NCBI GenBank assembly: GCA_022759035.1
Contig: JAEMQD010000096.1
Location: 1 to 50,622 of the forward strand
Direction: 5' to 3'
Length of the DNA: 50,622 nucleotides
Origin: Thiotrichales bacterium
Lineage (GTDB): Bacteria > Pseudomonadota > Gammaproteobacteria > Thiomicrospirales > Thiomicrospiraceae
Positions 3,318 to 17,045 of this stretch are shown piece after piece (the stretch's first letter is position 1; the number at the start of each line of letters is the position of its first letter). The translations under genes were made by a program, and so were the position numbers. The notes beneath the pieces were generated by a model. The model was not told the origin of the DNA. It did no database searches and was given only the letters and a program-made list of their open reading frames with translations.

Positions 3318-6300
3318 CTAATAAACATCTCTGACGTACCGCTTATCCTTGCTCATTTTTGCGACATAGGCATCAGCAGCTTCAACGCTCATCTCGCCAT
3401 ACTGACGAACCACTTCTTTTAACGCTGCATCAACATCTTTTGCCATGCGACTTGCATCACCACAAACATAAAAATAAGCGCCTTCAGATAGCCAACGCCA
3501 CAATATTTCGCCCTGTTCAAGCATGCGATGTTGCACATAAATTTTTTCATCTTGGTCGCGTGAGAAAGCGAGGTCTAAGCGCGTCAATAAGCCAGCATCC
3601 TGCATTGCAGCCAACTCATCACGATAGTAAAAATCTGTTTCCGCGCGCTGTTCACCAAAAAACAACCAGTTCTTACCTTTTGCACCTGTTGCCTGCCTTT
3701 CATGCAAAAAAGCTCTAAAAGGGGCAACGCCCGTACCAGGTCCGACCATAATCATGGCAGCATCTGGATTGGCAGGGACTTTGAAGTGTTGCGACGGCTG
3801 CACAAAAATAGAAACTCCTGTTTCTGCGGCACGATCAGCCAAAAAGGTGGAGCACAGGCCGCCTCTATCCATCCCATTATGCTGATAGCGAACCGTCGAA
3901 ACCGTTAACTGCACAACGTTAGGATCTGTTTTAGCGCTAGATGAAATAGAATAAAGACGCGGCTGCAAGCGTTTCAGAGTCGCCACGAAAGCTTCGGGCG
4001 AGGCGGCAAAGGGATGCTCGGTGACGAGATCAATCAACTGCTTTCCCCATAACCATTCCGTTAAAGTTGCCTTATTTTCTGGTTTTAATAAAGCAGCCAA
4101 AACATCGCTACCTGACTGATCACTTACCCAACGCAACAATTCCGGGGTGATTTTAGTAATATCAAAAACATGCGTTAGCGCATCAGCCAAAGTCATTTCG
4201 CCCTGATCTTTCAAAAAAACGCTCGTGTCAGCCGTCAGTTGAAGCTGCACTAACACCCCCTGAACTACCGAGGCGTCATTAACAGGCCAAACACCTAAAG
4301 CATCGCCCGCTTCATAGCTTAAGCCAGAACCAGACAAGTCAAAGGCGAATTGGCGTACTTCTTTTGCTGCACCTTGACCGCTCAATAACTTGTTCATTAA
4401 CAGTCTTGTTTTTAACGGATGTTGGCGATCATACTGGGATGCGGCACTTTCGCAGCTGGCGACTGTTATTCCAGATGCTTCATCAACAAAGCCGTCACCC
4501 ACAATTACCCGTCTCAGCGCTGACACTACGCCTGTTAGCCAAGCTTGCGCTGCCTCTTGATAATCTGGTTCGCAATCCACGCGATCATAAAAGCGCGTCC
4601 CGCCCAGTTCAGCTAAACGCGCATCTAAACGACGTCCAAAACCACAAAACTGATCATAATTGGAGTCACCCAATGCCAACACAGAAAATTGAACACCCGA
4701 CAAACAAGGGGCACTATCTGCCTGTAGGCTTGCCCAAAAAGCCACTGCATTATCTGGTGGATCACCATCACCAAAAGTGCTCGCTAACAACAAAACATGG
4801 CTCGCTTGAACCATGTCCTCGCTTTGCGCCGCATCCATACCAACGCACCTAACGCGGAATCCTGCTGCTTCGAGACGCTTCGCGCATAACTCAGCAAAGG
4901 ACTCGGCATTTCCTGTTTGCGATGCCCATAGGACTAACACATACATTGAGGACTCTATCGATGCACCAGACAACGAAAAAGCAGTTGCAGGCAGATTCTT
5001 TTCGCCGACACGAGAAAAGAATCCCGCCAGCAATCCATCAACCCAAAGTCTTTTTTCTGCAACGAACGGCGCACTTTCTGGCAGGACAGGTACGCCAACC
5101 AAAGGCAAGCCTGCGTTAGCACCAAGTGCAGCAACAAAACCTTGTAAATAATGTTTTTCAACAGGCAATAAATCAATCTTATAATTCGAGTCTAAAGACA
5201 ACAAATTGGCTAAGGAATCTATCGAAGACATAGCTGACTCCTGAGTTAAAAGCGTGGTTAGGCTATCCTCATTGACCACCTTAGTATCCCTAACATCGCT
5301 GTTATCTTTGCTCAAAGACACAGCACTAAACTTAAATTCTGGCTGAAAAGAAATCGGGTCAACCGCATCACTAGTTACTGCGTTAATACTCAGGTCTTTA
5401 CCAAACACATCATTCCAATGAAAAGGCACAAAACAGTTGCCAGCACGAACGCGCTCAGTAATCACGGCAGGCAACTTAGCAACACCGCGACGTGAGCGAA
5501 TAGCAACAAGATCTTTATCATTAATGCCAAGCTGCTGCGCATCTTCTGGATGAATCTCAACGAAAGGCGCGGGATTTAACTTATTAAGCGTCGCTACCTT
5601 TCCTGTTTTAGTCATCGTATGCCATTGATGCTGCAAGCGCCCCGTATTAAGCACAATCGGAAAATCAGCATCTGGCATTTCTGCTGGCGGTAACATCGGC
5701 CTAGCAAAAAAGACCGCCCTACCGCTTTGCGTAGCAAAAACAAGCTTAGGTATCGCACCCTGATCGGTTACTCTTAAATATTGACTAATGCCATCATTCA
5801 AATAACGAATAGGATGACGGTCTTGCTCATCAATAGGACAAGGCCATTGTAAAGATGTCTGACGCAAACGATCATAACTCGCACCACGCAAGTCATACCC
5901 AGTTTGCGGATTCCAACAAAGTTTAATTTCTTCAAATACTTGCTCAGCAGACTGATAAGAAAACGCATCGTCGTACCCCATTGCACAAGCAACCTGAGCG
6001 ATAATGAGCCAATCTGGCATAGCTTCACCAGGCGGATTAACTGCTTTCTGTGTTAGCGTTAGATTACGCTCAGAATTAATCATCACGCCATCGCCCTCAA
6101 CCCACAAGGCTCCAGGCAGCATCATATCCGCATAAGCATTTGTTTCTGTATCAAAAAAAGCATCTTGGGTGATAACAAACTCGGCAGCTCGTAAGCCATC
6201 AATAACTTTTTGCCGATTGGCAACTGAAGCAACTGGATTGGTGCAAATAATCCAACACGCTTTAATGCTACCTTGTTTCATCGACTCAAACAGCGATATG

Positions 6301-7448
6301 GTTCCTGTGCCAACATCGGTTTTCAATTTATCTGGCGGAATATTCCATAAGTCAGCGATAAATTCTCGGTCTTGCTCAACCAACACAGAGCGCTGCCCTG
6401 GCAGTCCTGGTCCCATATAACCCATTTCACGACCACCCATTGCGTTTGGCTGACCTGTCAACGAAAATGGACCTGCACCCAAACGGCAAATTGCGCCAGT
6501 CGCCAAATGTAAATTGCACAAAGCATTCGTATTCCACGTTCCATGTGTGCTTTGATTTAAGCCCATCGTCCAACAACTCATCCAATTAGCCGTTGCGCCA
6601 ATCCAATCTGCTGTCTGTTGAATGTCAGCAATAGCCAAACCCGTCATATCAGCAACACGCTCAAGCGTATAGTCCGCTAAAAAGGCAGGCATCGCCTCCC
6701 ATCCTTCGGTGTAATGCGCTATAAAGTCCTGATCTACTTTACCCTGGTGCCAAAGCCATGCCAACAACCCATTAAGCAACGCTAGGTCGGTACCGGGTTT
6801 AATTTGCAAAAACAAATCAGCCTTATCGGCAGTTGCATTTCGTCTTGGGTCAACCACCACAAGTTTGGCACCAGCCTTAACCCTATCCATCATCCGCAAA
6901 AACAAAATGGGATGACAATCCGCCATATTGGCACCGATCACAAAAAACAAATCGGCGTGATCAAAATCTTGGTAAGAACCTGGTGGCGCATCTGAACCAA
7001 GAGACAGCTTATAACCACTACCCGCGCTTGCCATACATAAACGTGAGTTAGACTCAATATTATTGGTACCAATAAATCCCTTAATTAGCTTATTCGCTAA
7101 ATATTGTGCCTCCAAAGACATTTGACCAGAAACATACATAGAGACAGCATCTGGGCCATGCGTATCAATCAACTGTCGCAGACGTCGCGCGGTTTCCTTA
7201 ATCGCCGACGACATAGATAATTTCACAGGTGCTTGATCTCTAGCTATTCTATGGTAGGCATAATCCAGTCTGCCAGAGTCGGTAACAGGCTGAATACAGG
7301 TATTGCCTTTCGTGCATAAACGACCAAAGTTAGTTGGGTGCGACTTATCTCCCATAACCTTAATCATTTTTTGATCTTGCACCTCAATCACGATGCCACA
7401 ACCAACACCACAATAAGGACAAACACTTTTTACTATTTCTGTACTCAA
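3318..7448 (-). CDS. nasA: Assimilatory nitrate reductase fused to a CysJ-type FMN/FAD NAD(P)H reductase
   Basis: 1376-residue fusion that should reduce nitrate to nitrite in the cytoplasm with electrons from NAD(P)H. The N-terminal [4Fe-4S] motif uses Cys10, 13, 17 and 45. Cys138 in SRLCMASA is the expected molybdenum ligand. Molybdopterin domains run to about residue 715, ending in the dinucleotide-binding segment around [17 protein letters not shown]. After a low-complexity linker, residues about 830-970 are a flavodoxin domain ([31 protein letters not shown]). Then come an FAD domain (RLYSISSS) and an NADP-binding domain ([22 protein letters not shown]), ending YVRDVY like CysJ. This replaces the separate reductase subunit and the C-terminal [2Fe-2S] domain of Klebsiella-type NasA. 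The start is TTG at 7448 behind AGGA. Such fusions are known in some proteobacteria. Confidence 0.93.
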
Positions 7449-7473: not shown

Positions 7474-7531
7474 AAAAAAAAGCGCTCAGCAACACCCTTC
7501 AACGAAGTAAAGAGAGTTGATGAACGCCTTT
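7474..7531 (-). terminator. Intrinsic terminator in the nasA leader (NasT-controlled attenuator)
   Basis: On the minus strand AAAGGCGTTCATCAAC pairs with GTTGCTGAGCGCTTTT as a 16-position stem with one mismatch and two G-U pairs, followed by eight T. It lies 26 bases before the TTG start of nasA, so without antitermination transcription should stop here. Its 5' arm is shared with the second ANTAR hairpin (7519-7539), making the two structures mutually exclusive. Confidence 0.82.
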
Positions 7532-7559: not shown

Positions 7560-7572
7560 TAAAAAATAATAA

Positions 7573-7586
7573 GCAAATAAATGACC
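7573..7586 (-). promoter_or_regulatory. Sigma-54 promoter of the nasA operon
   Basis: The minus strand reads GGTCATTTATTTGC, the invariant GG-N10-GC of -24/-12 promoters with the usual T before the GC. The predicted start is near 7561, immediately before the first leader hairpin. An NtrC-like site is centred about 109 bp upstream. Confidence 0.7.
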
Positions 7587-7662
7587 ATAATAAACTATAT
7601 AAATAAATATCATTGTGTTATTACAATAATATATAATAAAAAAACAAACAAACAAAAATAAG

Positions 7663-7677
7663 GCACCAAAACAGTGC
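7663..7677. promoter_or_regulatory. NtrC binding site for the nasA operon
   Basis: The minus strand reads GCACTGTTTTGGTGC, matching the NtrC pattern GCAC(C/T)-N5-GGTGC without a mismatch. It is centred near 7670, about -109 from the predicted nasA start, the usual enhancer distance. It overlaps the GTG start codon of the divergent moeA gene, so bound NtrC could also affect moeA. Confidence 0.72.
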
Positions 7678-8858
7678 AAAAAGAAAGCATTTTATCCTTT
7701 GAAGCCGCTTTTTCTTCCTTGCTGAATGGCGTCAAAGTGACACAAAAATACGAACGCTGTTTCATTGAACAAGCACAAGGACGCGTATTAGCCGAAGACT
7801 TAATTAGCCCTATCGACTTCCCGCCCTACGATATCGCCTTAATGGATGGTTATGCTGTCGGTGATTTAAGTGGCAAATGGACACTAACTGATCTTGATGA
7901 AAACCAAACGCTTACACCGACCTCTGCCATGGTTGTATCCACAGGAAATCCCGTACCAAAGCAAGCCGTTTGTGTTGTACAAAACGAATTAATGACAAAA
8001 CAAAATACCGCGCTCTCTACGGAAAAACCACCAACTTTCGATCAAAATATACGACGAAAAGGTACCACAATCAGCCAATCAGAAATTGTTTTTCCTGCGG
8101 GAACCAAGATGACACCAGAACATCTTGCCGTTTGCGCTGCTTTAGGCATTCATCAATTTACTTGTTACCAACCGCTAACCATTGGGCTACTTACCACTGG
8201 TGATGAAATTTTGCCGTTACACGCCCGATTATCCCCAGGAAAACTCTTCAACAGTAATGCTGTGTTAATCACACAAAGCTTGCAACAACAAGGCTTTCAA
8301 ATAACGGAACATCAACACTTACCAGACAGCACTTCATTGCTTGTAGACTATTTAACCAAGCATGCCGCCGATTTTGATGTCATTATCACCATCGGCGGGA
8401 CATCGGTTAGCGAACAAGACATTATTAATAAAAGCCTAGCTTGGATGAGCGACACACCGATCGGCAAGGTCAACATGAAACCAGGAAAACCCTTTAAATA
8501 CAGCAAAATTAATAACACCGACATCATCTCTTTACCTGGCCCTCCCATTGCAGCATTCACAACACTTCATTTGTTTTTATTGCCTGCGCTGCAAAAAAAA
8601 CAGGGTAGCCTTACGCCACACTTATTGCAAAGAAGCCTAACACTTTCCGCTACCTTTACACATGAAAATGATCAACGCACCCAGTTTTTACGCGCGCAAT
8701 TATCTATAGATAACGCAGGAAAACAACAAATTAACCTACTTGCACATCGCGGATTTGATGATATTCTTTCTCTTATTAACACCACAGGATTTATTTACAT
8801 TAAACCGCATGAGCGCATATCCATAGGTACACCGATCACGTATTTACCCATTAGATAA
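7674..8858 (+). CDS. moeA: Molybdopterin molybdenumtransferase MoeA
   Basis: 394-residue enzyme inserting molybdate into adenylylated molybdopterin, the last common step before the cofactor is given to NasA. The motifs are in order: PPYDIALMDGYAV near residue 55 (family P-x-x-D-x-S-A-M-D-G-Y-A), VVSTGNPVP, IRRKGTTIS, TTGDEIL, LFNSNA, ITIGGTSVSEQD, MKPGKPF and SLPGPPIAAF. The C-terminal domain is recognisable but diverged. The start is GTG at 7674, with AAGG about ten bases upstream; the first in-frame ATG would remove the N-terminal domain. It is divergent from nasA and convergent with nirD, with a bidirectional terminator between. It is one of two plus-strand genes in the nitrate island. Confidence 0.92.
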   Translation: MQKESILSFEAAFSSLLNGVKVTQKYERCFIEQAQGRVLAEDLISPIDFPPYDIALMDGYAVGDLSGKWTLTDLDENQTLTPTSAMVVSTGNPVPKQAVCVVQNELMTKQNTALSTEKPPTFDQNIRRKGTTISQSEIVFPAGTKMTPEHLAVCAALGIHQFTCYQPLTIGLLTTGDEILPLHARLSPGKLFNSNAVLITQSLQQQGFQITEHQHLPDSTSLLVDYLTKHAADFDVIITIGGTSVSEQDIINKSLAWMSDTPIGKVNMKPGKPFKYSKINNTDIISLPGPPIAAFTTLHLFLLPALQKKQGSLTPHLLQRSLTLSATFTHENDQRTQFLRAQLSIDNAGKQQINLLAHRGFDDILSLINTTGFIYIKPHERISIGTPITYLPIR

Positions 8859-8912: not shown

Positions 8913-9230
8913 TTAGCTGACCCAAACATCCCCACCTTCAACCTTCACCGAATACACAGTCAACGCAACTTCTGGCTTTTCCAAACACTTGCCCGTACTC
9001 AAGCTGTAATGTTCTTTGTACAAAGGCGATGCTACAACTAACTCCCCCTTAATCGAGCCGACAATGCCACGCGACATCACATTCGCTTGACCGATCGGAT
9101 CATAATTAGATAAGGCATAAACCTGATCATTCACATAAAACAAAGCAATCGCTTGATCCTTAAATAGCGCAGGCACGCCTGCATCGGCAATTAAATCCGA
9201 AACAGCGCATATTTTTACCCATTCAGACAT
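8913..9230 (-). CDS. nirD: Assimilatory nitrite reductase small subunit NirD
   Basis: 105-residue Rieske-fold small subunit that partners NirB in NAD(P)H-dependent reduction of nitrite to ammonium in the cytoplasm. The start MSEWVKICAVSDL is chosen at 9230 because GGAGGTG lies three bases upstream; a longer frame starting inside nirB has no support. The diagnostic segment NYDPIGQANVMSRGIVG is present, followed by SPLYKEHYSLSTGKCLE. As in enterobacterial NirD, the cysteine and histidine ligands of a true Rieske cluster are missing, so the subunit is structural. It starts ten bases after nirB ends and is the last gene of the nrt-nir operon. Confidence 0.93.
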   Translation of the reverse strand: MSEWVKICAVSDLIADAGVPALFKDQAIALFYVNDQVYALSNYDPIGQANVMSRGIVGSIKGELVVASPLYKEHYSLSTGKCLEKPEVALTVYSVKVEGGDVWVS

Positions 9231-9240
9231 TGACACCTCC

Positions 9241-11772
9241 TTACACCAACTCAACAGCGAGGCTTTCTAACTTTTCCTGCGCTGTTGCGGGGCGTAATTG
9301 TCCGCGCTCACGCACATAAAGTTGCTCTGGATCTTTCTCGTCAGCATTAACAAAATTGTAGAAAAGTTTCGCTTTCTCTGGATCATCGACCACCTGCTGC
9401 CAGTCACATTGATAACTATTCACCAAAGATTGCATTTGCATTTCTAAATGCATTCCAATCCCTAAACTATCTTCGATGACCACTTGACGCAAATAATCAA
9501 TACCGCCTTCTAAATTACCCAACCAAGTCGCTGTACGCTCTAAACGTCCAGCGGTTTGAATGTAAAACATGATAAAACGGTCGATGTATTTGAATAAGGT
9601 CGCTTCGTCTAAATCTACCGCAAACAAGTCAGCATGGCGCGGTTTCATGCCGCCATTACCGCAAACATACAAATTCCAACCATTTTCCGTTGCAATCACG
9701 CCAATGTCTTTCGCTTGTGCTTCAGCACATTCACGAGTACAACCAGAAACGCCCATTTTCATTTTGTGCGGAGAGCGTACGCCTTTATAACGATTTTCTA
9801 AATCAATCGCCATTTTGACTGAATCCAACATACCATAACGACACCAAGTTGAGCCAACACAGGACTTCACGGTGCGCAAGGCTTTAGCATAAGCTTGACC
9901 AGATTCAAACCCTGCATCAATCAAGCGTTTCCAAATGGCAGGCATGTCTGGTAGCTTCGCACCAAACAAAACAATACGCTGACCACCATTAATTTTTGTG
10001 TACAGTTGATAATCCTTAGCGACCTGCCCCAACACAATAAGTTTATCGGGTGTAATCTCGCCACCAGGGACACGAGGAATAATCGAATAACTACCATCTT
10101 TTTGCATATTGCCCAGGTAGCGATCATTCGTATCCTGTAATGGAATATTTTTCTTATCGAAAGCGTAAGCATTCCACACCGAGCCTAAAATCGAAGCAAC
10201 GGCAGGTTTACAAATATCACAACCATGCCCTTCGCCGTGCGCGTGTAATAACGAGGCAAAGTCTTTATGCCCTTCCACTTTCACCAAATGGTATAACTCT
10301 TGGCGAGAATAGGGAAAATGTTCACAAATCGCTTTGCTGACTTCTACACCACGCTTGGCTAATTCGGCATTCACGACTGAAGTAACTAACTGGGTACAAC
10401 CACCACAGCCCGTACAGGCTTTAGTCGCATTTTTGACATCTGCCAAACAGGTTGCACCCTCATCAATCGCCTGAATAATTCTGCCTTTGCTGACATCGTA
10501 GCAAGAACACAATTGCGCGCTATCTGGCAAGGAATCTGGGCCAAAACTTGGTTTAGTGCCAGCTCGTGCTGGTAAAATCAAATCATCTGGATGTTCTGGC
10601 AAATCCATATCGTTGAGTTTTAATTGCAGCAAATTGCCGTAATCATCGACATCGCCAACCAACACTGCACCTAATAACTTTTTACCATCTGCGGAAACCA
10701 CCAGTTTTTTGTACACTTCTTGCGGGCCGTTTTCGTAGATGTACGACTTAGCTGCTTCGTCTGTTCCGTGCGGATCACCAATGGATGCGACATCGACCCC
10801 CATCAGCTTCAACTTAGTAGACATATCCGCACCAGTAAAAGCTGCTGGTTTATGATTGAGGTGATCGACTACCACCTGCGCCATCGCATAACCTGGTGCA
10901 ACCAAGCCATAAATCATACCGCCATGTAGCGCACACTCACCGATGGCATACACATGCGCTGCGCTGGTCTGACACTGATCGTTAATAACAATCCCCCCAC
11001 GCGCACCCATCGCCAACCCAGCCTGTTTCGCTAGCTCATCGCGCGGGCGAATCCCTGCCGAAAAGAGAATAACATCCGTTTCTAGGCTTTCACCATCGGC
11101 AAACACCATTTTATGACGCGCTGTTTCGCCATCTTCAATGATTTTTGTGCTCTTGCTGGTATGAATTTTTACACCCAACTTCTCGATTTTGCGACGCAAC
11201 ATGCTCGCACCACCATTATCGAGCTGAACAGGCATCAGTCGTGGCGCGAACTCGACCACATGCGTTTGCAAACCCAAATCGACCAATGCCTTAGCAGCTT
11301 CTAAACCGAGCAATCCACCGCCAACCACCACACCAATTTTGCTGCGCGTTGCAGCTTCTTTCATCGCTTCTAAATCTTCGATGGTGCGATAGACCAAACA
11401 GGCATCACGATTATTACCCTCGATCGGCGGCACAAAAGGATAAGAACCTGTTGCCAACACCAACTTATCGTAAGTCATGCTGATGCCAGAAGCCGTAGTG
11501 ATGCTTTGTGCTGCGCTATCAATCGCCACCACTTTTTCGTTTAAGCGAATGTCGATACCATTAGCTTCATAAAAACCAGTTGGCACTAACGACAAATCTT
11601 CTGCCGTTTTACCACTAAAATAAGACGATAAATAGACCCGATCATAAGCCACTCGAGGCTCTTCACCAAACACCGTCACCGTATAATCAGAAAAAGCAGA
11701 TGAATTAACCAGCTTATCCAAAAAGGCATGACCAACCATGCCATTACCCACCACCACTAACTTCTTTTTCAT
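9241..11772 (-). CDS. nirB: Assimilatory nitrite reductase large subunit NirB
   Basis: 843-residue siroheme enzyme reducing nitrite to ammonium with NAD(P)H. The N-terminal pyridine nucleotide-disulfide oxidoreductase domain has VVVGNGMVGHAFL for FAD and GVVGGGLLGLEAA for NAD(P)H. BFD-like [2Fe-2S] segments follow (LCSCYDVSKG...ACTGCGGC, then GHGCDICKP). The C-terminal sulfite/nitrite reductase domains bind [4Fe-4S]-siroheme through CVGSTWC and SGCTRECAEA, the expected C-x5-C and C-x3-C pairs, both visible. The length equals typical NirB. It follows the transporter ATPase by 33 bases. Siroheme comes from cysG in the neighbouring operon. All cofactor ligands look intact. Confidence 0.97.
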   Translation of the reverse strand: MKKKLVVVGNGMVGHAFLDKLVNSSAFSDYTVTVFGEEPRVAYDRVYLSSYFSGKTAEDLSLVPTGFYEANGIDIRLNEKVVAIDSAAQSITTASGISMTYDKLVLATGSYPFVPPIEGNNRDACLVYRTIEDLEAMKEAATRSKIGVVVGGGLLGLEAAKALVDLGLQTHVVEFAPRLMPVQLDNGGASMLRRKIEKLGVKIHTSKSTKIIEDGETARHKMVFADGESLETDVILFSAGIRPRDELAKQAGLAMGARGGIVINDQCQTSAAHVYAIGECALHGGMIYGLVAPGYAMAQVVVDHLNHKPAAFTGADMSTKLKLMGVDVASIGDPHGTDEAAKSYIYENGPQEVYKKLVVSADGKKLLGAVLVGDVDDYGNLLQLKLNDMDLPEHPDDLILPARAGTKPSFGPDSLPDSAQLCSCYDVSKGRIIQAIDEGATCLADVKNATKACTGCGGCTQLVTSVVNAELAKRGVEVSKAICEHFPYSRQELYHLVKVEGHKDFASLLHAHGEGHGCDICKPAVASILGSVWNAYAFDKKNIPLQDTNDRYLGNMQKDGSYSIIPRVPGGEITPDKLIVLGQVAKDYQLYTKINGGQRIVLFGAKLPDMPAIWKRLIDAGFESGQAYAKALRTVKSCVGSTWCRYGMLDSVKMAIDLENRYKGVRSPHKMKMGVSGCTRECAEAQAKDIGVIATENGWNLYVCGNGGMKPRHADLFAVDLDEATLFKYIDRFIMFYIQTAGRLERTATWLGNLEGGIDYLRQVVIEDSLGIGMHLEMQMQSLVNSYQCDWQQVVDDPEKAKLFYNFVNADEKDPEQLYVRERGQLRPATAQEKLESLAVELV

Positions 11773-11805: not shown

Positions 11806-12603
11806 TTAATGATCATCTTTACGATGCTTATCGTATAAAAAGGTCAACACAGCCTGACGACAACGTAAATACTCTGGATCATTTGCCAATGCCAAACGAC
11901 TGCGTGGACGCTCTAAACGAACAGGCAAAATCTCACCGACCGTCGCCGCAGGTCCATTTGTCATCATCACAATCTTGTCCGACAGCAATACCGCTTCATC
12001 GACATCATGCGTCACCATGACCACTGTGGTGTTAATTTCGGCACAGATCTTCATCAACTCATCTTGTAGATGGGCGCGGGTTAAGGCATCTAACGCACCG
12101 AATGGCTCATCCATCAGCAACACTTTTGGCTGCATGGCAAGCGCACGCGCAATCCCCACCCGTTGCTTCATACCACCAGAAATTTCATTCGGACGTTTAT
12201 GCGCCGCATGATCCATATGCACTAGCTTGAGATTGTAATTGACCCAATCATCTTTCTCGGCTTTGGTTTTTGTTTTGGCAAAAACCGAATCCACCGCCAA
12301 CATCACGTTTTCATATACCGTCAACCAAGGTAATAACGAATGGTTCTGAAAGACCACTGCCCGCTCAGGACCAGGACCTGAAATTTCACGATCTGCGCAA
12401 AGAGCAACCCCTTCAGAGGCAGGATACAAGCCAGCAATAATGTTCAGCACCGTTGACTTACCGCAACCTGAGTGTCCAATAATCGACACAAACTCGCCTT
12501 GCTTAATGTTAATGTTTACATCTTTGAGCGCTGTAAACGCCCCAGACTTAGTGTGAAACGTCATCTCGATGTTTTCTAACGAAACAAATTTATCAAGATT
12601 CAT
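11806..12603 (-). CDS. nrtC: Nitrate ABC transporter ATP-binding protein
   Basis: 265-residue ATPase driving nitrate/nitrite import. Walker A is GHSGCGKST near residue 43, the Q-loop region is VVFQNHSLLPWL, the signature is ISGGMKQRVGIARAL, Walker B is VLLMDEPFGALD, and the switch histidine is in VTHDVDEAVLLSD. It lacks the C-terminal NrtA-like domain of cyanobacterial NrtC, so it matches the single-domain ATPase (NrtD/NasD) of proteobacterial systems; the symbol is therefore approximate. Four bases separate it from the permease gene. With one ATPase gene, the transporter presumably uses a homodimer of this protein. Confidence 0.9.
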   Translation of the reverse strand: MNLDKFVSLENIEMTFHTKSGAFTALKDVNINIKQGEFVSIIGHSGCGKSTVLNIIAGLYPASEGVALCADREISGPGPERAVVFQNHSLLPWLTVYENVMLAVDSVFAKTKTKAEKDDWVNYNLKLVHMDHAAHKRPNEISGGMKQRVGIARALAMQPKVLLMDEPFGALDALTRAHLQDELMKICAEINTTVVMVTHDVDEAVLLSDKIVMMTNGPAATVGEILPVRLERPRSRLALANDPEYLRCRQAVLTFLYDKHRKDDH

Positions 12604-12607
12604 CGCC

Positions 12608-13393
12608 CTACTCTCCGTAACTAAAACGTTGCGCCAACCAGACCAAAGCAGCTTCCAACATTAACCCAATAAGACCAATGACAATAATGGCAACCAAAAT
12701 GTGCGCGACATTTAAGTTATTCCACTCATCCCACACCCAAAACCCGATACCAATACCACCCGTCAGCATTTCGGCAGCCACAATCACTAGCCACGCCACA
12801 CCAATCGCCAATCGAACCCCTGTGAGCAAGTATGGCAATACAGCAGGAATCATAATTTTGGTCATAATTTGCCATTCGCTTAGGCGCAACACTTTGGCAA
12901 CATTCATATAATCTGATGGCACACGCGACACGCCGACTGCGGTATTAATAATCATGGGCCAGATACTGGAGATAAAAATCACCCAAATCGCCGCCCAATG
13001 CGTCGAATTAAAAATCAACAACCCCAATGGCAACCAAGCTAATGGCGACACAGGGCGCAACAAACTAATAATCGGATTAAACGCACGAGAGGCAAACAAT
13101 GAGCGACCAATCCAAAAGCCTAAGGGAATACCGATCAATGCTGCCAGCCCAAACCCTAGCCCAACACGACCCAATGAATACATAATGTTCCAACCGATTC
13201 CCATATCATTCGGACCGTTGTTATAAAAAGGATCAGAAAACAACTCCACACCTGCCGTCCAAGTCACAGCTGGTGTAGGGATTTTGCCATCGGTTGCCGT
13301 CGACACACCCGACCACAACAAGATAAAAAACAGGATGCCTAATAGTGTTGGCGCTAACCACATTAAAAAAGACTTCAATTGCATTTGCGACAT
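12608..13393 (-). CDS. nrtB: Nitrate ABC transporter permease
   Basis: 261-residue inner-membrane permease of the NitT/TauT family. Several hydrophobic segments are visible, beginning MWLAPTLLGILFFILLW, with more around residues 75-95, 135-150 and 230-250. The cytoplasmic ATPase-contact loop contains EWQIMTKIMIPAVLPYLLTGVRLAIGVAW, close to the EAA-x3-G motif region of the family. The length is typical. It lies between the binding-protein gene and the ATPase gene. An 83-base gap to nrtA contains a strong stem-loop. Confidence 0.92.
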   Translation of the reverse strand: MSQMQLKSFLMWLAPTLLGILFFILLWSGVSTATDGKIPTPAVTWTAGVELFSDPFYNNGPNDMGIGWNIMYSLGRVGLGFGLAALIGIPLGFWIGRSLFASRAFNPIISLLRPVSPLAWLPLGLLIFNSTHWAAIWVIFISSIWPMIINTAVGVSRVPSDYMNVAKVLRLSEWQIMTKIMIPAVLPYLLTGVRLAIGVAWLVIVAAEMLTGGIGIGFWVWDEWNNLNVAHILVAIIVIGLIGLMLEAALVWLAQRFSYGE

Positions 13394-13476: not shown

Positions 13477-14763
13477 TTAAGCTTTAACTGCGAAAGAAGC
13501 GGCATAAGCTGCTGGATTAGAACCATCCCACACTTTGCCATCCATTAACTTAGAAGTACGCATGGTTTCTGTAGGTGTAGCAACTTTAGCCATTGCCGCA
13601 GCATCTTTATAAACGTCGATACGATTAACCGATTTTGCAATCGACAAATAATCTGGGTCATCCTTTACCAAACCCCAACGCTTGTGTTGAGTCATAAACC
13701 ACATACCATCGGACAAATAAGGGTAATTTACTTTACCCTCATCAAAAAACTTCATTGCATGGGGATCATCCCAAGTTTTTCCCGCACCGTTATCGTATTT
13801 TCCTGCCATGCGGCCATCAATAACATCAACAGGACAATTAATATAAGCTTTTGAAGCAACGGTTTCGGCTACCTCTCGACGATTTACAGAAGCATCAATA
13901 AATTTAGAAGCATCTAAAATAGCAGCCACCATCGCACGCGCCGTATTTGGATACTGTTCAACAAAGGCTTTTGTTGTACCCAATACTTTTTCTGGATGTT
14001 CCTGCCAAATATCTTGTGTCGTAGTAACCGTAAACCCAATTTTGTCCATAATAGCGCGAGCATTCCACGGCTCACCAACACAAAAACCATCCATATTACC
14101 AACACGCATGTTAGCAACCATTTGTGGCGGCGGAACAACAATATTTTTGACATCGCTAAATGGATTAATATCATGTGCTGCTAACCAATAATATAACCAC
14201 ATCGCATGTGTTCCTGTTGGGAAAGTTTGCGCAAAGGTATATTCACGCTTATCACTAGAAATTAACTTTCGTAAAGACGTCCCATCCATTACACCTTTAT
14301 CTTTGAGCGCATTAGAGAGGGTAATTGCCTGGCCATTGTGGTTAAGATTCATCAAAACGGCCATATCTTTTTGCGGACCGCCTATCCCCATTTGCAAACC
14401 GTAAATTAATCCATAAAGCACATGCGAAGCATCCAATTCGCCATTCGTTAACTTATCTCGCACACCCGCCCAAGAAGCTTCTTTTGACGGAATAATATTA
14501 ATGCCATATTTTTTATCAAAGCCCTTAACCGAAGCCATGACCACGCTAGCGCAATCGGTTAACGGAATAAAACCAATTTTTACGTCTGTTTTTTCTGGCG
14601 CATCAGAACCCGCAGCCCATGCTGCATTTCGGATGCTTGGTGCTACTAATCCCATTAATGCTGCTCCTGTTAACAGCGCTCCGCCCTTAATAAAACTGCG
14701 ACGAGACATTTCTGTTGCCGCATCTTGAACTGAGATCGTTTTTTTGGTTAAGTTATCACTCAT
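13477..14763 (-). CDS. nrtA: Nitrate ABC transporter substrate-binding protein, Tat-exported
   Basis: 428-residue periplasmic nitrate-binding protein. The N terminus has a twin-arginine signal, SRRSFIKGGALLTGAALMG, ending near NAAWA, so it is predicted to be exported folded. The mature part starts VKIGFIPLTDCASVVMA and contains NMDGFCVGEPWNARA, typical of the NrtA/NasS/CmpA family. I start at the ATG at 14763, with AAGGAG upstream; a longer frame to 14868 would run back through the leader attenuator. It is the first gene of nrtABC-nirBD. NasS, the cytoplasmic nitrate sensor paralogue, is similar, but the Tat signal and operon position favour transport. Confidence 0.93.
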   Translation of the reverse strand: MSDNLTKKTISVQDAATEMSRRSFIKGGALLTGAALMGLVAPSIRNAAWAAGSDAPEKTDVKIGFIPLTDCASVVMASVKGFDKKYGINIIPSKEASWAGVRDKLTNGELDASHVLYGLIYGLQMGIGGPQKDMAVLMNLNHNGQAITLSNALKDKGVMDGTSLRKLISSDKREYTFAQTFPTGTHAMWLYYWLAAHDINPFSDVKNIVVPPPQMVANMRVGNMDGFCVGEPWNARAIMDKIGFTVTTTQDIWQEHPEKVLGTTKAFVEQYPNTARAMVAAILDASKFIDASVNRREVAETVASKAYINCPVDVIDGRMAGKYDNGAGKTWDDPHAMKFFDEGKVNYPYLSDGMWFMTQHKRWGLVKDDPDYLSIAKSVNRIDVYKDAAAMAKVATPTETMRTSKLMDGKVWDGSNPAAYAASFAVKA

Positions 14764-14789: not shown

Positions 14790-14846
14790 AAAAAAGGCGC
14801 TCGATTGTTCTACCTTCATTGCTGAAAGGAACAACCGAACGCCTTT
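14790..14846 (-). terminator. Intrinsic terminator in the nrtA leader (NasT-controlled attenuator)
   Basis: On the minus strand AAAGGCGTTCGGTTGTTC pairs with GAACAATCGAGCGCCTTT over 18 positions, including two G-U wobbles, followed by a T-run. It lies 27 bases before the nrtA ATG. Its 5' arm is shared with hairpin P2 of the ANTAR motif. An inner hairpin with loop AGCAAU also forms, but it lacks G at position 4. Confidence 0.86.
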
Positions 14847-14878
14847 GTTCAGTGCAACAAATCATCATTGACTCGTTG
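14835..14878 (-). promoter_or_regulatory. Two-hairpin ANTAR antitermination motif in the nrtA leader RNA
   Basis: P1 (14855-14878) has arms CAACGAGUC and GAUUUGUUG around hexaloop AAUGAU. P2 (14835-14852) has arms CUGAAC and GUUCGG around hexaloop AAAGGC. Both loops have A1 and G4, and the stems differ from those of the nasA leader while the loops and architecture are kept. That covariation supports a real RNA element. P2 and the terminator cannot form together, so NasT binding should allow transcription of nrtABC-nirBD. Confidence 0.85.
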
Positions 14879-14892
14879 TTTTACTTTATAAA

Positions 14893-14906
14893 GCTTTAAT
14901 TATGCC
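14893..14906 (-). promoter_or_regulatory. Sigma-54 promoter of nrtABC-nirBD
   Basis: The minus strand reads GGCATAATTAAAGC, preceded by T, so TGGCAT-N8-GC fits the -24/-12 consensus well. The predicted start near 14881 is three bases before ANTAR hairpin P1, the same geometry as at nasA. Confidence 0.74.
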
Positions 14907-14981
14907 AAATAATAATATATAATTAAATTCAATATGTTATAAATATTTTACAGCATAACTTATTCATAAATGGTTTTTATT

Positions 14982-15017
14982 GCACCAAATAAGTTAAATT
15001 TAGCACCAAAGGTGAAC
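14982..15017. promoter_or_regulatory. Two NtrC-like sites upstream of nrtA
   Basis: Plus-strand half-sites GCACC occur at 14982-14986 and 15003-15007, 21 bp apart (about two helical turns). The first, GCACCAAATAAGTTA, is centred near -108 from the predicted nrtA start and matches GCACC-N5-(A/G)GTGC in eight of ten fixed positions. The second is weaker on its far side and overlaps the AAAGGTGA ribosome site of the amidotransferase gene, so it may be partly coincidental. Confidence 0.55.
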
Positions 15018-15020
15018 AAA

Positions 15021-15734
15021 ATGAATACTGTCGTCATTTTTCAATTCTACCCTAGTGAAGATGCGGGTTACTTAGCACATTTTTTAACCGAAAAAAATAT
15101 TCCTTGGCACTATATACGTGTTGATCAAGGACAACCTATCCCGACCTCTCTTAATAATATTAGTGCAATGATTATGATGGGTGGTCCAATGAGTGTTAAC
15201 GACAAATTACCTTGGATACCACCACTACTTAACTTAATTTGCCAAGCGCAAAATGAAAATATTCCCATGGTCGGTCACTGTCTTGGTGGTCAGCTTATTG
15301 CTAAAGCATTAGGCGCACAAGTTAAAACGAACTCGGTACGAGAAATAGGCTGGGGAAAAGTAACACCAGCCAACAATGATGACGCAAAAGCTTATTTTGG
15401 AGAAAAAGCATTTCAGGCATTTCATTGGCACGGAGAAACTTTTGAATTACCAAAAGAATCAATACCGTTACTCAGTAGTCCTTATTGCCAAAACCAAGCT
15501 TTTTCCTTAGGTAATACGCTCGCAATGCAATGTCATATAGAAATGACCAAAGAAATGATTACAGAATGGTGTATTAGTGATGCTAACTACCATGCCCAAG
15601 GATTAGCAACCTCCCCTGCTGTACAAACATTAACACAAATGGAAACAGATACAGTTTGTTATTTACCTTTATTACAGCAACAAGCAAAGCGCTGTTATGA
15701 ACATTGGTTAACAAAAATAAACGTAAAGTTTTAG
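15021..15734 (+). CDS. Class I glutamine amidotransferase-like protein
   Basis: 237-residue stand-alone amidotransferase domain like the GuaA N-terminal half. The nucleophile elbow is VGHCLGGQLIAKALG (Cys near residue 91), with HWHGETFELP and CHIEMTKEM supplying the His-Glu pair. The start is the ATG at 15021, preceded by AAAGGTGA; a longer frame has no ribosome site. No synthetase domain or partner gene is next to it, so the acceptor is unknown. It diverges from nrtA across the NtrC-site region, and its stop codon overlaps that of convergent nasT by four bases. The context suggests a link to nitrogen metabolism, but this is inferred. Confidence 0.83.
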   Translation: MNTVVIFQFYPSEDAGYLAHFLTEKNIPWHYIRVDQGQPIPTSLNNISAMIMMGGPMSVNDKLPWIPPLLNLICQAQNENIPMVGHCLGGQLIAKALGAQVKTNSVREIGWGKVTPANNDDAKAYFGEKAFQAFHWHGETFELPKESIPLLSSPYCQNQAFSLGNTLAMQCHIEMTKEMITEWCISDANYHAQGLATSPAVQTLTQMETDTVCYLPLLQQQAKRCYEHWLTKINVKF

Positions 15735-16309
15735 CTTAACAATTCTGCTACTGAAACCACATTAGCGGCAATTTCTGCTAGTGGTTTTCCTTTATCCATT
15801 GCCAACTTACGTAACTGTTTAAAAGCAGTATCTTCATCAATACCAGCTTGCTTCATTAAAAATCCTTTAGCTTTTTCAATCAATTTACGATCAGCAAGTT
15901 GATGTTTTGTTTGTGCCAATTCATCTTTTAATGCTTGGTACTCCCTAAATCTCGCAATAGCAACTTCCAAAATACTTTTAATCCTATTTTGCGCTACGCC
16001 ATCAACGACATAAGCACTAACACCACTTTGAATTGCTTTACGAATCAAATTACTATCATCGTTTTCAGCAAACATAACTACCGGTTTTGGATTAAGCTCA
16101 TTAATAATTGCTAAATGTTCTAACGTATCTCGACTAGGTGCATCTACTTCTATAATAATGACGTCTGGATGATAAGATTCAACCGTTTTAATCAAGTTTG
16201 CTTCTAAATCAGGACGAAAAATATCACATCCCATATCAGAATCCAGTAATGCTTGTGCAATAACAGCCCCACGACCACGGTCACTGTCTACCAACAACAC
16301 CTTAATCAC
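15731..16309 (-). CDS. nasT: NasT, ANTAR-domain antiterminator of nitrate assimilation
   Basis: 192-residue response-regulator-like RNA-binding protein. Residues 1-120 form a receiver-like domain (IKVLLVDSDRGRGAVIAQAL). At the usual phospho-aspartate position the sequence reads PDVIIIEVDAP, so Glu replaces Asp. A short coiled coil leads to a C-terminal ANTAR domain (LIEKAKGFLMKQAGIDEDTAFKQLRKLAM), which binds paired hexaloop hairpins. Two such targets occur in this window. I choose GTG at 16309 because AAAGGTGG lies about seven bases upstream; an ATG at 16345 would lie upstream of the predicted transcript start. No nasS, the usual nitrate-sensing inhibitor, is adjacent or in the window. Confidence 0.9.
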   Translation of the reverse strand: MIKVLLVDSDRGRGAVIAQALLDSDMGCDIFRPDLEANLIKTVESYHPDVIIIEVDAPSRDTLEHLAIINELNPKPVVMFAENDDSNLIRKAIQSGVSAYVVDGVAQNRIKSILEVAIARFREYQALKDELAQTKHQLADRKLIEKAKGFLMKQAGIDEDTAFKQLRKLAMDKGKPLAEIAANVVSVAELLS

Positions 16310-16463: not shown

Positions 16464-17045
16464 CTAAGGACAAGAAATATTTTCTGGACAATTCATATTA
16501 CGCAATACTTCATCATTACCTTGCCAACATATATAATCCGCATCTAATCGCTCATAAGCTTCGCTTAAACGATAGTTTCCTTCATCTAATAAGTCAGCTA
16601 ATACAGATAAACTATCTCGATGAAAAAAAGCAACAGCCGTATGTTTTCCTTGCTTATCCGATAACACAACTGCATGTTTTTTAGTAGTTAATACATTTTC
16701 ATACATTAAATTAACCACTTCAATTGATAAATAAGGCATATCACAAGGCAATACCAACAACCAATTGACTGCATCAGGTAATACCAGTAATAATTCATGA
16801 ATACCTTTTAATGGCCCAGAACCAACAAGTTGCCGCTCAACAACTAATTTAATGCCTAGTTTGCCAGCCCAAGATAATTGATCGTCACGAACACATAATC
16901 CAAGAAAAGGATAGTCACTTAAACGATCAATAACATGACATGCCATTGGTTTTCCAGATAAAAGGTAAGTCGCCTTTGGAAAACCCCGCCATCGACGAGA
17001 ATCACCACCAGCCAACATACCAAAATAGAAAAAATAATCTGTCAT
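16464..17045 (-). CDS. mobA: Molybdenum cofactor guanylyltransferase MobA
   Basis: 193-residue enzyme that attaches GMP to molybdopterin to make the MGD form used by NasA. The N-terminal nucleotide-binding loop is GMLAGGDSRRWRGFPKATYLLSGKPM, a variant of LAGGxSxRMGxDK in which tryptophan and proline replace the usual Met and Asp. VLPCDMPYLS supplies the metal-binding aspartate, and NMNCPEN matches the family's C-terminal NxNTPED region. The length is normal. It lies upstream of nasT on the same strand, with the nasT promoter between. Beyond its start lies the AT-rich DnaA-box region. Confidence 0.87.
   Translation of the reverse strand: MTDYFFYFGMLAGGDSRRWRGFPKATYLLSGKPMACHVIDRLSDYPFLGLCVRDDQLSWAGKLGIKLVVERQLVGSGPLKGIHELLLVLPDAVNWLLVLPCDMPYLSIEVVNLMYENVLTTKKHAVVLSDKQGKHTAVAFFHRDSLSVLADLLDEGNYRLSEAYERLDADYICWQGNDEVLRNMNCPENISCP

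Follow-up and report, generated by a model that had tools for sequence, protein, structure and literature searches.

The nrtABC-nirBD and nasA loci

The window considered here is the whole stretch of 50,622 nt that was analysed, contig JAEMQD010000096.1 of the Thiotrichales bacterium assembly GCA_022759035.1. On its minus strand, nrtA (13477..14763) encodes a nitrate-binding protein with a Tat signal (Pfam PF13379 and PF10518), related to the solved NrtA 2G29, and is the first gene of a putatively regulated operon that comprises the genes for the NrtB permease (12608..13393; NCBIfam TIGR01183), the NrtC ATPase (11806..12603), the large subunit of nitrite reductase, NirB, recognized by family match (9241..11772), and a NirD-like small subunit (8913..9254), a short ORF that overlaps nirB at the end of that gene and is assigned from the ORF and its position only. 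The length of NrtC (265 aa) rules out an NrtA-like regulatory domain of the kind found on cyanobacterial NrtC. The second putatively regulated operon, also on the minus strand, begins with the nitrate reductase gene nasA (3318..7448), followed by cysG. NasA itself is a molybdopterin reductase fused to flavodoxin and FAD/NAD-binding domains.

The next gene upstream of the nrtA leader on the minus strand, ending about 0.85-1 kb away from it, is nasT (15731..16306). Its product combines a receiver-like domain, with a Glu at the phospho-acceptor position, and an ANTAR domain (match, 9e-21), and has Rv1626, EutV and NasR as its nearest solved relatives by sequence; no second ANTAR protein was found in the genome. 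A class-I glutamine amidotransferase-like gene (14970-15734) is convergent with nasT and lies near it in the sister species too (L165). A MobA-like gene (16464-17045) adjoins nasT, and in the sister species a MobA-like ORF comes after nasT, an arrangement that fits molybdenum cofactor supply for NasA.

Architecture of the two leaders

The nrtA leader (14878-14790, minus strand) precedes nrtABC-nirBD and, as read directly in the sequence, consists of a hairpin P1, a 4-nt linker (CACU), a second hairpin P2 and an intrinsic terminator. P1 (14855..14878; CAACGAGUC[AAUGAU]GAUUUGUUG from 14878 to 14855) has 9 bp and a hexaloop, AAUGAU, with A1 and G4; it is identified from the sequence, the predicted fold, a covariance-model match and covariation in relatives. 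P2 (14837..14850; GAAC[AAAGGC]GUUC), identified from the sequence and the covariance-model match (33.5 bits), has 4 bp and again A1 and G4 in the loop. The terminator (14790..14846), found in folds and in a rule-based scan, has a 5' arm that starts within the P2 loop, excludes P2, and is closed by a U-run near 14790. The predicted folding energy of the whole leader is −45.4 kcal/mol versus a mean of −22 kcal/mol for shuffled sequences (z = −6.9), none of 200 shuffles being as good.

The nasA leader has the same parts, namely P1 (7540..7559, minus strand; AUAAGUC[AAUGGC]GGCUUAU, 7 bp; from sequence, fold, covariance model and scan), P2 (7523..7534, minus strand; AAC[AAAGGC]GUU, 3 bp; from sequence, covariance model and scan) and a terminator (7474..7531, minus strand; from sequence, fold and scan) that overlaps P2. 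A previous sequence-only reading had described the nrtA leader as two hairpins plus a terminator as in nasA, with the P2 loop AAAGGC identical in the two leaders and P1 loops both starting with AAUG, and direct inspection of both sequences agrees with this description. The compensatory differences that it saw between the two copies are weaker than stated. Of the seven P1 pairs shared by the nrtA and nasA leaders, one shows a change of both partners (from C-G to U-A) and three show wobble changes, so that the two window copies alone give thin evidence for covariation; the strong signal comes from the relatives described below.

The rule-based scan searched both window strands for two A1/G4 hexaloop hairpins with the right spacing and a terminator overlapping P2. 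It returned the nrtA and nasA leaders only, with no match in 20 dinucleotide shuffles. The window leaders display structural features of ANTAR targets: both hairpins have 3 bp or more and a hexaloop with A1 and G4, and P2 is overlapped, according to the folds and the scan, by an intrinsic terminator. In a search of the leader with the Rfam 15 covariance models nothing relevant matched up to E = 5; Rfam may contain no ANTAR family, and this result is not counter-evidence to the ANTAR assignment.

Conservation and covariation in relatives

NrtA is approximately 70% identical to betaproteobacterial NrtA, and the P2 core ACAANGGYGU is present within 450 bases upstream in 58 of 80 relatives, some of the loci being too short to judge. 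The relatives used for P2 were picked with a pattern that contains both inner P2 pairs, so that the P2 pairing counts hold partly by construction. For P1, selecting sequences for pairing had to be avoided, and the set (27 relatives and the two window leaders, 29 in all) was therefore chosen by loop sequence only. In these 29 leaders pairing is found in 92.0% of cells versus 63.5% in shuffled controls, the covariation score is 0.871 versus 0.286, and two-sided changes occur in eight of the nine pairs; the signal disappears on sliding the partner. A1 and G4 are kept in both hexaloops across the nrtA leaders of distant relatives. Absence of the pairing or of the A1/G4 positions from related genomes had been named in advance as the outcome that would speak against the two-hairpin design; the homologous nrtA leaders keep both, with extensive covariation.

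Two covariance models were built, R1, which contained window sequences, and R2, made of betaproteobacterial nrtA leaders only. In the window R2 scores 33.5 bits for the nrtA leader and 27.8 bits for the nasA leader (next-best match, 7.6 bits), with whole-genome E-values of 4.4e-5 and 1.0e-3, respectively, under a rough calibration. Because its training sequences were partly picked for having two hairpins, R2 gauges likeness to the two-hairpin design and not the design itself. Matches of less than about 25 bits in family relatives were set aside, as betaproteobacterial leaders are what the model is tuned to and chance dominates the list, and an opposite-strand match in the sister-species operon (L163:7140-7177, 21 bits) was judged to be due to chance.

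R2 also detects a leader of the same design (L162:2828-2917; 30.2 bits) directly before a second cysG on contig C139 of the same assembly; the protein encoded by this cysG shares 76% identity with the window CysG. Next to the C139 leader is a 737-aa ORF (L162:484-2697). Since the contig is only 3.5 kb long and the contamination of the assembly is estimated at 3.2%, the C139 leader would be either a third NasT target or foreign sequence. The proposal of a NasT regulon of two operons gains support as far as the nrtA and nasA leaders are concerned, and its count may be too low unless C139 is a contaminant. In the sister species (G001) a leader precedes nasA, with a P1 that differs from that of the window nasA leader by a two-sided change; its nrtA leader lies beyond the end of the contig.

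Promoter-like sites and possible nitrogen control

With GG-N10-GC in a TGGCAC-TTGC context (12 positions) as the criterion, candidate sigma-54-like promoters were located on the minus strand 29 nt upstream of P1 of nrtA (TGGCATAATTAAAGCT, 14892..14907) and 28 nt upstream of P1 of nasA (TGGTCATTTATTTGCT, 7572..7587). Both agree with the consensus at 8 of 12 positions, which taken alone is at chance level, and the C139 and sister-species sites at 10 of 12. All four leaders of the genus (nrtA, nasA, C139 and sister nasA) have a GG-N10-GC site 28-30 nt ahead of P1, and from this spacing the transcript would begin a few bases before P1. Among the betaproteobacterial leaders, 54 of 58 carry a site scoring at least 9/12 (control: mononucleotide shuffle). 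A sigma-54-like promoter, weak by score alone, is a candidate supported by position and comparison. Farther upstream by approximately 75 nt, NtrC-like sites are no more than suggestive: the one at nrtA (TGCACCAAATAAGTTAA, 14981..14997, two mismatches; some 74 nt before the sigma-54-like site) is weak, with 22 such matches in the window, and the one at nasA is a dyad with one mismatch (GGCACCAAAACAGTGCA, 7662..7678; 75 nt upstream). RpoN and NtrC are both encoded in the genome. By taking into account the sigma-54-like sites of the genus leaders and of the 54 betaproteobacterial ones, the arrangement suggests that nitrogen limitation and nitrate jointly gate the operon.

Folding and proposed switch

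The hairpin and terminator design, the scan, the covariance-model matches and the P1 covariation lead us to regard the nrtA leader, with a probability of roughly 0.9, as a standard ANTAR/NasT antitermination leader and a further example of a known nitrate switch. Both hairpins, the overlap of P2 and terminator, the covariation and the presence of just one NasT-like protein can be read from the sequence and form the basis of this assignment. The calculated energy of the nrtA leader is −44.8 kcal/mol in the terminator state versus −27.2 kcal/mol with P2 forced, and the cost of forcing P2 is 17.6 kcal/mol in nrtA, 13.7 kcal/mol in nasA, 5.7 kcal/mol in C139 and 13.4 kcal/mol in the sister nasA leader. 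As the P2 state costs approximately 6-18 kcal/mol in all four, termination would be the default state. In a transcript ending just past P2, both hairpins are predicted to fold in the nrtA, C139 and sister leaders, and P1 only in that of nasA. The fold also indicates that an A1-U6 pair could turn the P1 loop AAUGAU into a tetraloop in the free RNA, which is impossible for loops like AAUGGC.

In the ANTAR model a protein sitting on both loops holds P2 and prevents formation of the terminator (PMC3369931, PMC8934654). For the nrtA leader we infer NasT binding, antitermination, nitrate as the signal and an input from sigma-54 and NtrC. RNA polymerase, probably in its sigma-54 form, would initiate just ahead of P1. 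When active NasT is absent, the nascent RNA would make the long terminator, with the P2 loop and 3' arm absorbed into its 5' arm, and transcription would end before nrtA. In the presence of nitrate, NasT would bind P1 and P2 together by way of their A1/G4 hexaloops, keep P2 closed and block the terminator, so that nrtABC-nirBD would be transcribed. NasT would also control nasA-cysG and perhaps the second cysG.

NasT and the missing NasS

In known systems NasT is held by NasS, a signal-less NrtA homologue (PMC3795266). NasS was not found in the window genome, a draft that is 99.5% complete and, as drafts can, may miss genes, where the single PF13379 protein is the Tat-signal NrtA; nor was it found in the sister species, which has one PF13379 protein. 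When a NasS query was run against 22 related betaproteobacterial genomes and the sister species, NrtA was the sole full-length match in each, with a second, weaker homologue of 461-493 aa in seven of them. A signal-less NasS adjoins NasT in several family relatives. In several family relatives, too, there is a tandem pair of ANTAR genes, one from each of two distant clades (L012, L013, L018, L020 and L023).

Where the flank is long enough to judge, most betaproteobacterial relatives have nasT immediately upstream of the nrtA leader; in L066, one of the 22 genomes, no nasT was detected next to nrtA. A conserved sensor gene was sought upstream of nasT in betaproteobacteria and, as judged from ORF starts, none was seen; nrtA was the sole neighbour that nasT was seen to keep there. 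The position aligned with the receiver Asp of EutV and Rv1626, at the end of beta 3, is a Glu in NasT of both the window and the sister species, and D, E, A, Q or G in betaproteobacterial NasT. With the acceptor thus replaced here and not conserved there, phosphorylation is unlikely to take the place of NasS. In a NasT tree with long branches the betaproteobacterial proteins fall on one side of a branch and the window NasT is nearer to those of its family; transfer of the whole module from betaproteobacteria, despite the NrtA identity, is not supported by this tree. In an ntrC mutant of Acidovorax citrulli a gene labelled 'nasS' is down and nasT is up (PMC10052978). No paper on a NasS-less NasT was found in the open-access literature that was searched, which is limited evidence of novelty.

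Alternative readings

The NasT model has weak points, namely the possible closure of the nrtA P1 loop to a tetraloop, a nasA P2 of 3 bp that is not predicted in the short transcript, sigma-54 scores of 8/12 in the window and the failure to find NasS. The greatest stability in the folds belongs to the strong terminator, as would also be expected if the hairpins were an ordinary intrinsic terminator and its surroundings, for example where an upstream transcript ends, and no regulator were involved. This explanation is close to negligible, because P1 covaries independently of the terminator, A1 and G4 of both hexaloops are kept across distant relatives, the terminator sits in the sense orientation between the promoter-like site and nrtA, and nasT, the next gene upstream on that strand, ends about 0.85 kb away. 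We also find it very unlikely that the two-hairpin element is real and read by an RNA-binding protein other than the neighbouring NasT. With NasS missing NasT might indeed be inert, and its binding to the leader is a prediction; however, it is the only ANTAR protein found, its ANTAR match is strong, and most of the betaproteobacterial relatives checked have nasT next to nrtA.

Within the NasT model, two further proposals address the missing partner, both of which we hold to be rather improbable. According to one, NrtA would take over the role of NasS: having folded in the cytoplasm ahead of its export, it would keep hold of NasT there until nitrate is bound. The two proteins, NasS and NrtA, are homologous, and NrtA has a clear Tat signal; it is the sole PF13379 protein found in the genome and the sole full-length NasS-like match in 23 genomes of this type, and its gene is the only conserved nasT neighbour seen in betaproteobacteria. 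On these grounds Tat-exported NrtA is the only conserved candidate, as yet unproven, for signalling to NasT. However, the adjacency is otherwise explained by nrtA being itself a target, and the exported NrtA may be the only stable pool. The broader form, that this genus and many betaproteobacteria use NasT without NasS, with NrtA doubling as a nitrate sensor that holds NasT before Tat export, is a speculative extension that we deem slightly more doubtful still; if true, the transporter would report on its own supply and substrate. According to the other proposal, NasT works without any protein sensor, the leader being constitutively open once NasT is made and control being left to NtrC and sigma-54. 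The failure to find NasS in the window genome, the sister species and the 22 betaproteobacterial genomes, the Glu at the phospho-acceptor position, and the sigma-54-like promoters together with NtrC and RpoN in the genome are in line with it, but a strongly conserved attenuator would then be of little use unless the level of NasT or another ligand sets it.

Comparison with known systems

The standard ANTAR/NasT reading would add to the known NasT leaders those of nrtABC-nirBD operons in a little-known, Thiotrichales-like lineage and in dozens of betaproteobacteria. None of the checked genomes of this type yielded the textbook partner NasS, so that what tells NasT of nitrate becomes a testable question.

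A close structural parallel is with EutV of Enterococcus faecalis (Ramesh et al. 2012, PMC3369931), the targets of which also have two A1/G4 hexaloop hairpins with P2 overlapping an intrinsic terminator. EutV differs in being activated by phosphorylation, whereas the window NasT has a Glu at the acceptor Asp position. The eut linkers are 5-12 nt long and a 3-nt test linker failed (PMC3369931), to be compared with the 4 nt of the window nrtA leader if P1 is taken as 9 bp and P2 as 4 bp. In the Klebsiella NasR-nasF leader, hexaloop hairpins likewise precede the terminator of a nitrate operon (PMC3369931) and NtrC contributes to expression (PMC5424462), an input only inferred in the window; in contrast to NasR, which senses nitrate with its own NIT domain, the window NasT is devoid of such a domain.

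Several NasT leaders per genome are also known in Bradyrhizobium diazoefficiens, where, unlike in the window, NasS is present and the targets include nosR and nirA, on the leaders of which NasT acts (PMC6759348). NasS-NasT control of nirBD in Pseudomonas aeruginosa (Romeo et al. 2012, as cited in PMC6759348) likewise involves a NasT-like protein and the leader of an assimilation operon. The NasS-NasT system of Paracoccus denitrificans (PMC3795266, PMC5424462) shares with the window a NasT-like protein and leaders of nitrate/nitrite assimilation operons; there, NasT binds nasA RNA (PMC3795266), and mutants of the nasA leader provide a precedent (PMC5424462). The window differs from such NasS-NasT systems in that NasS was not found and in that nrtABC would be a target with a leader of its own.
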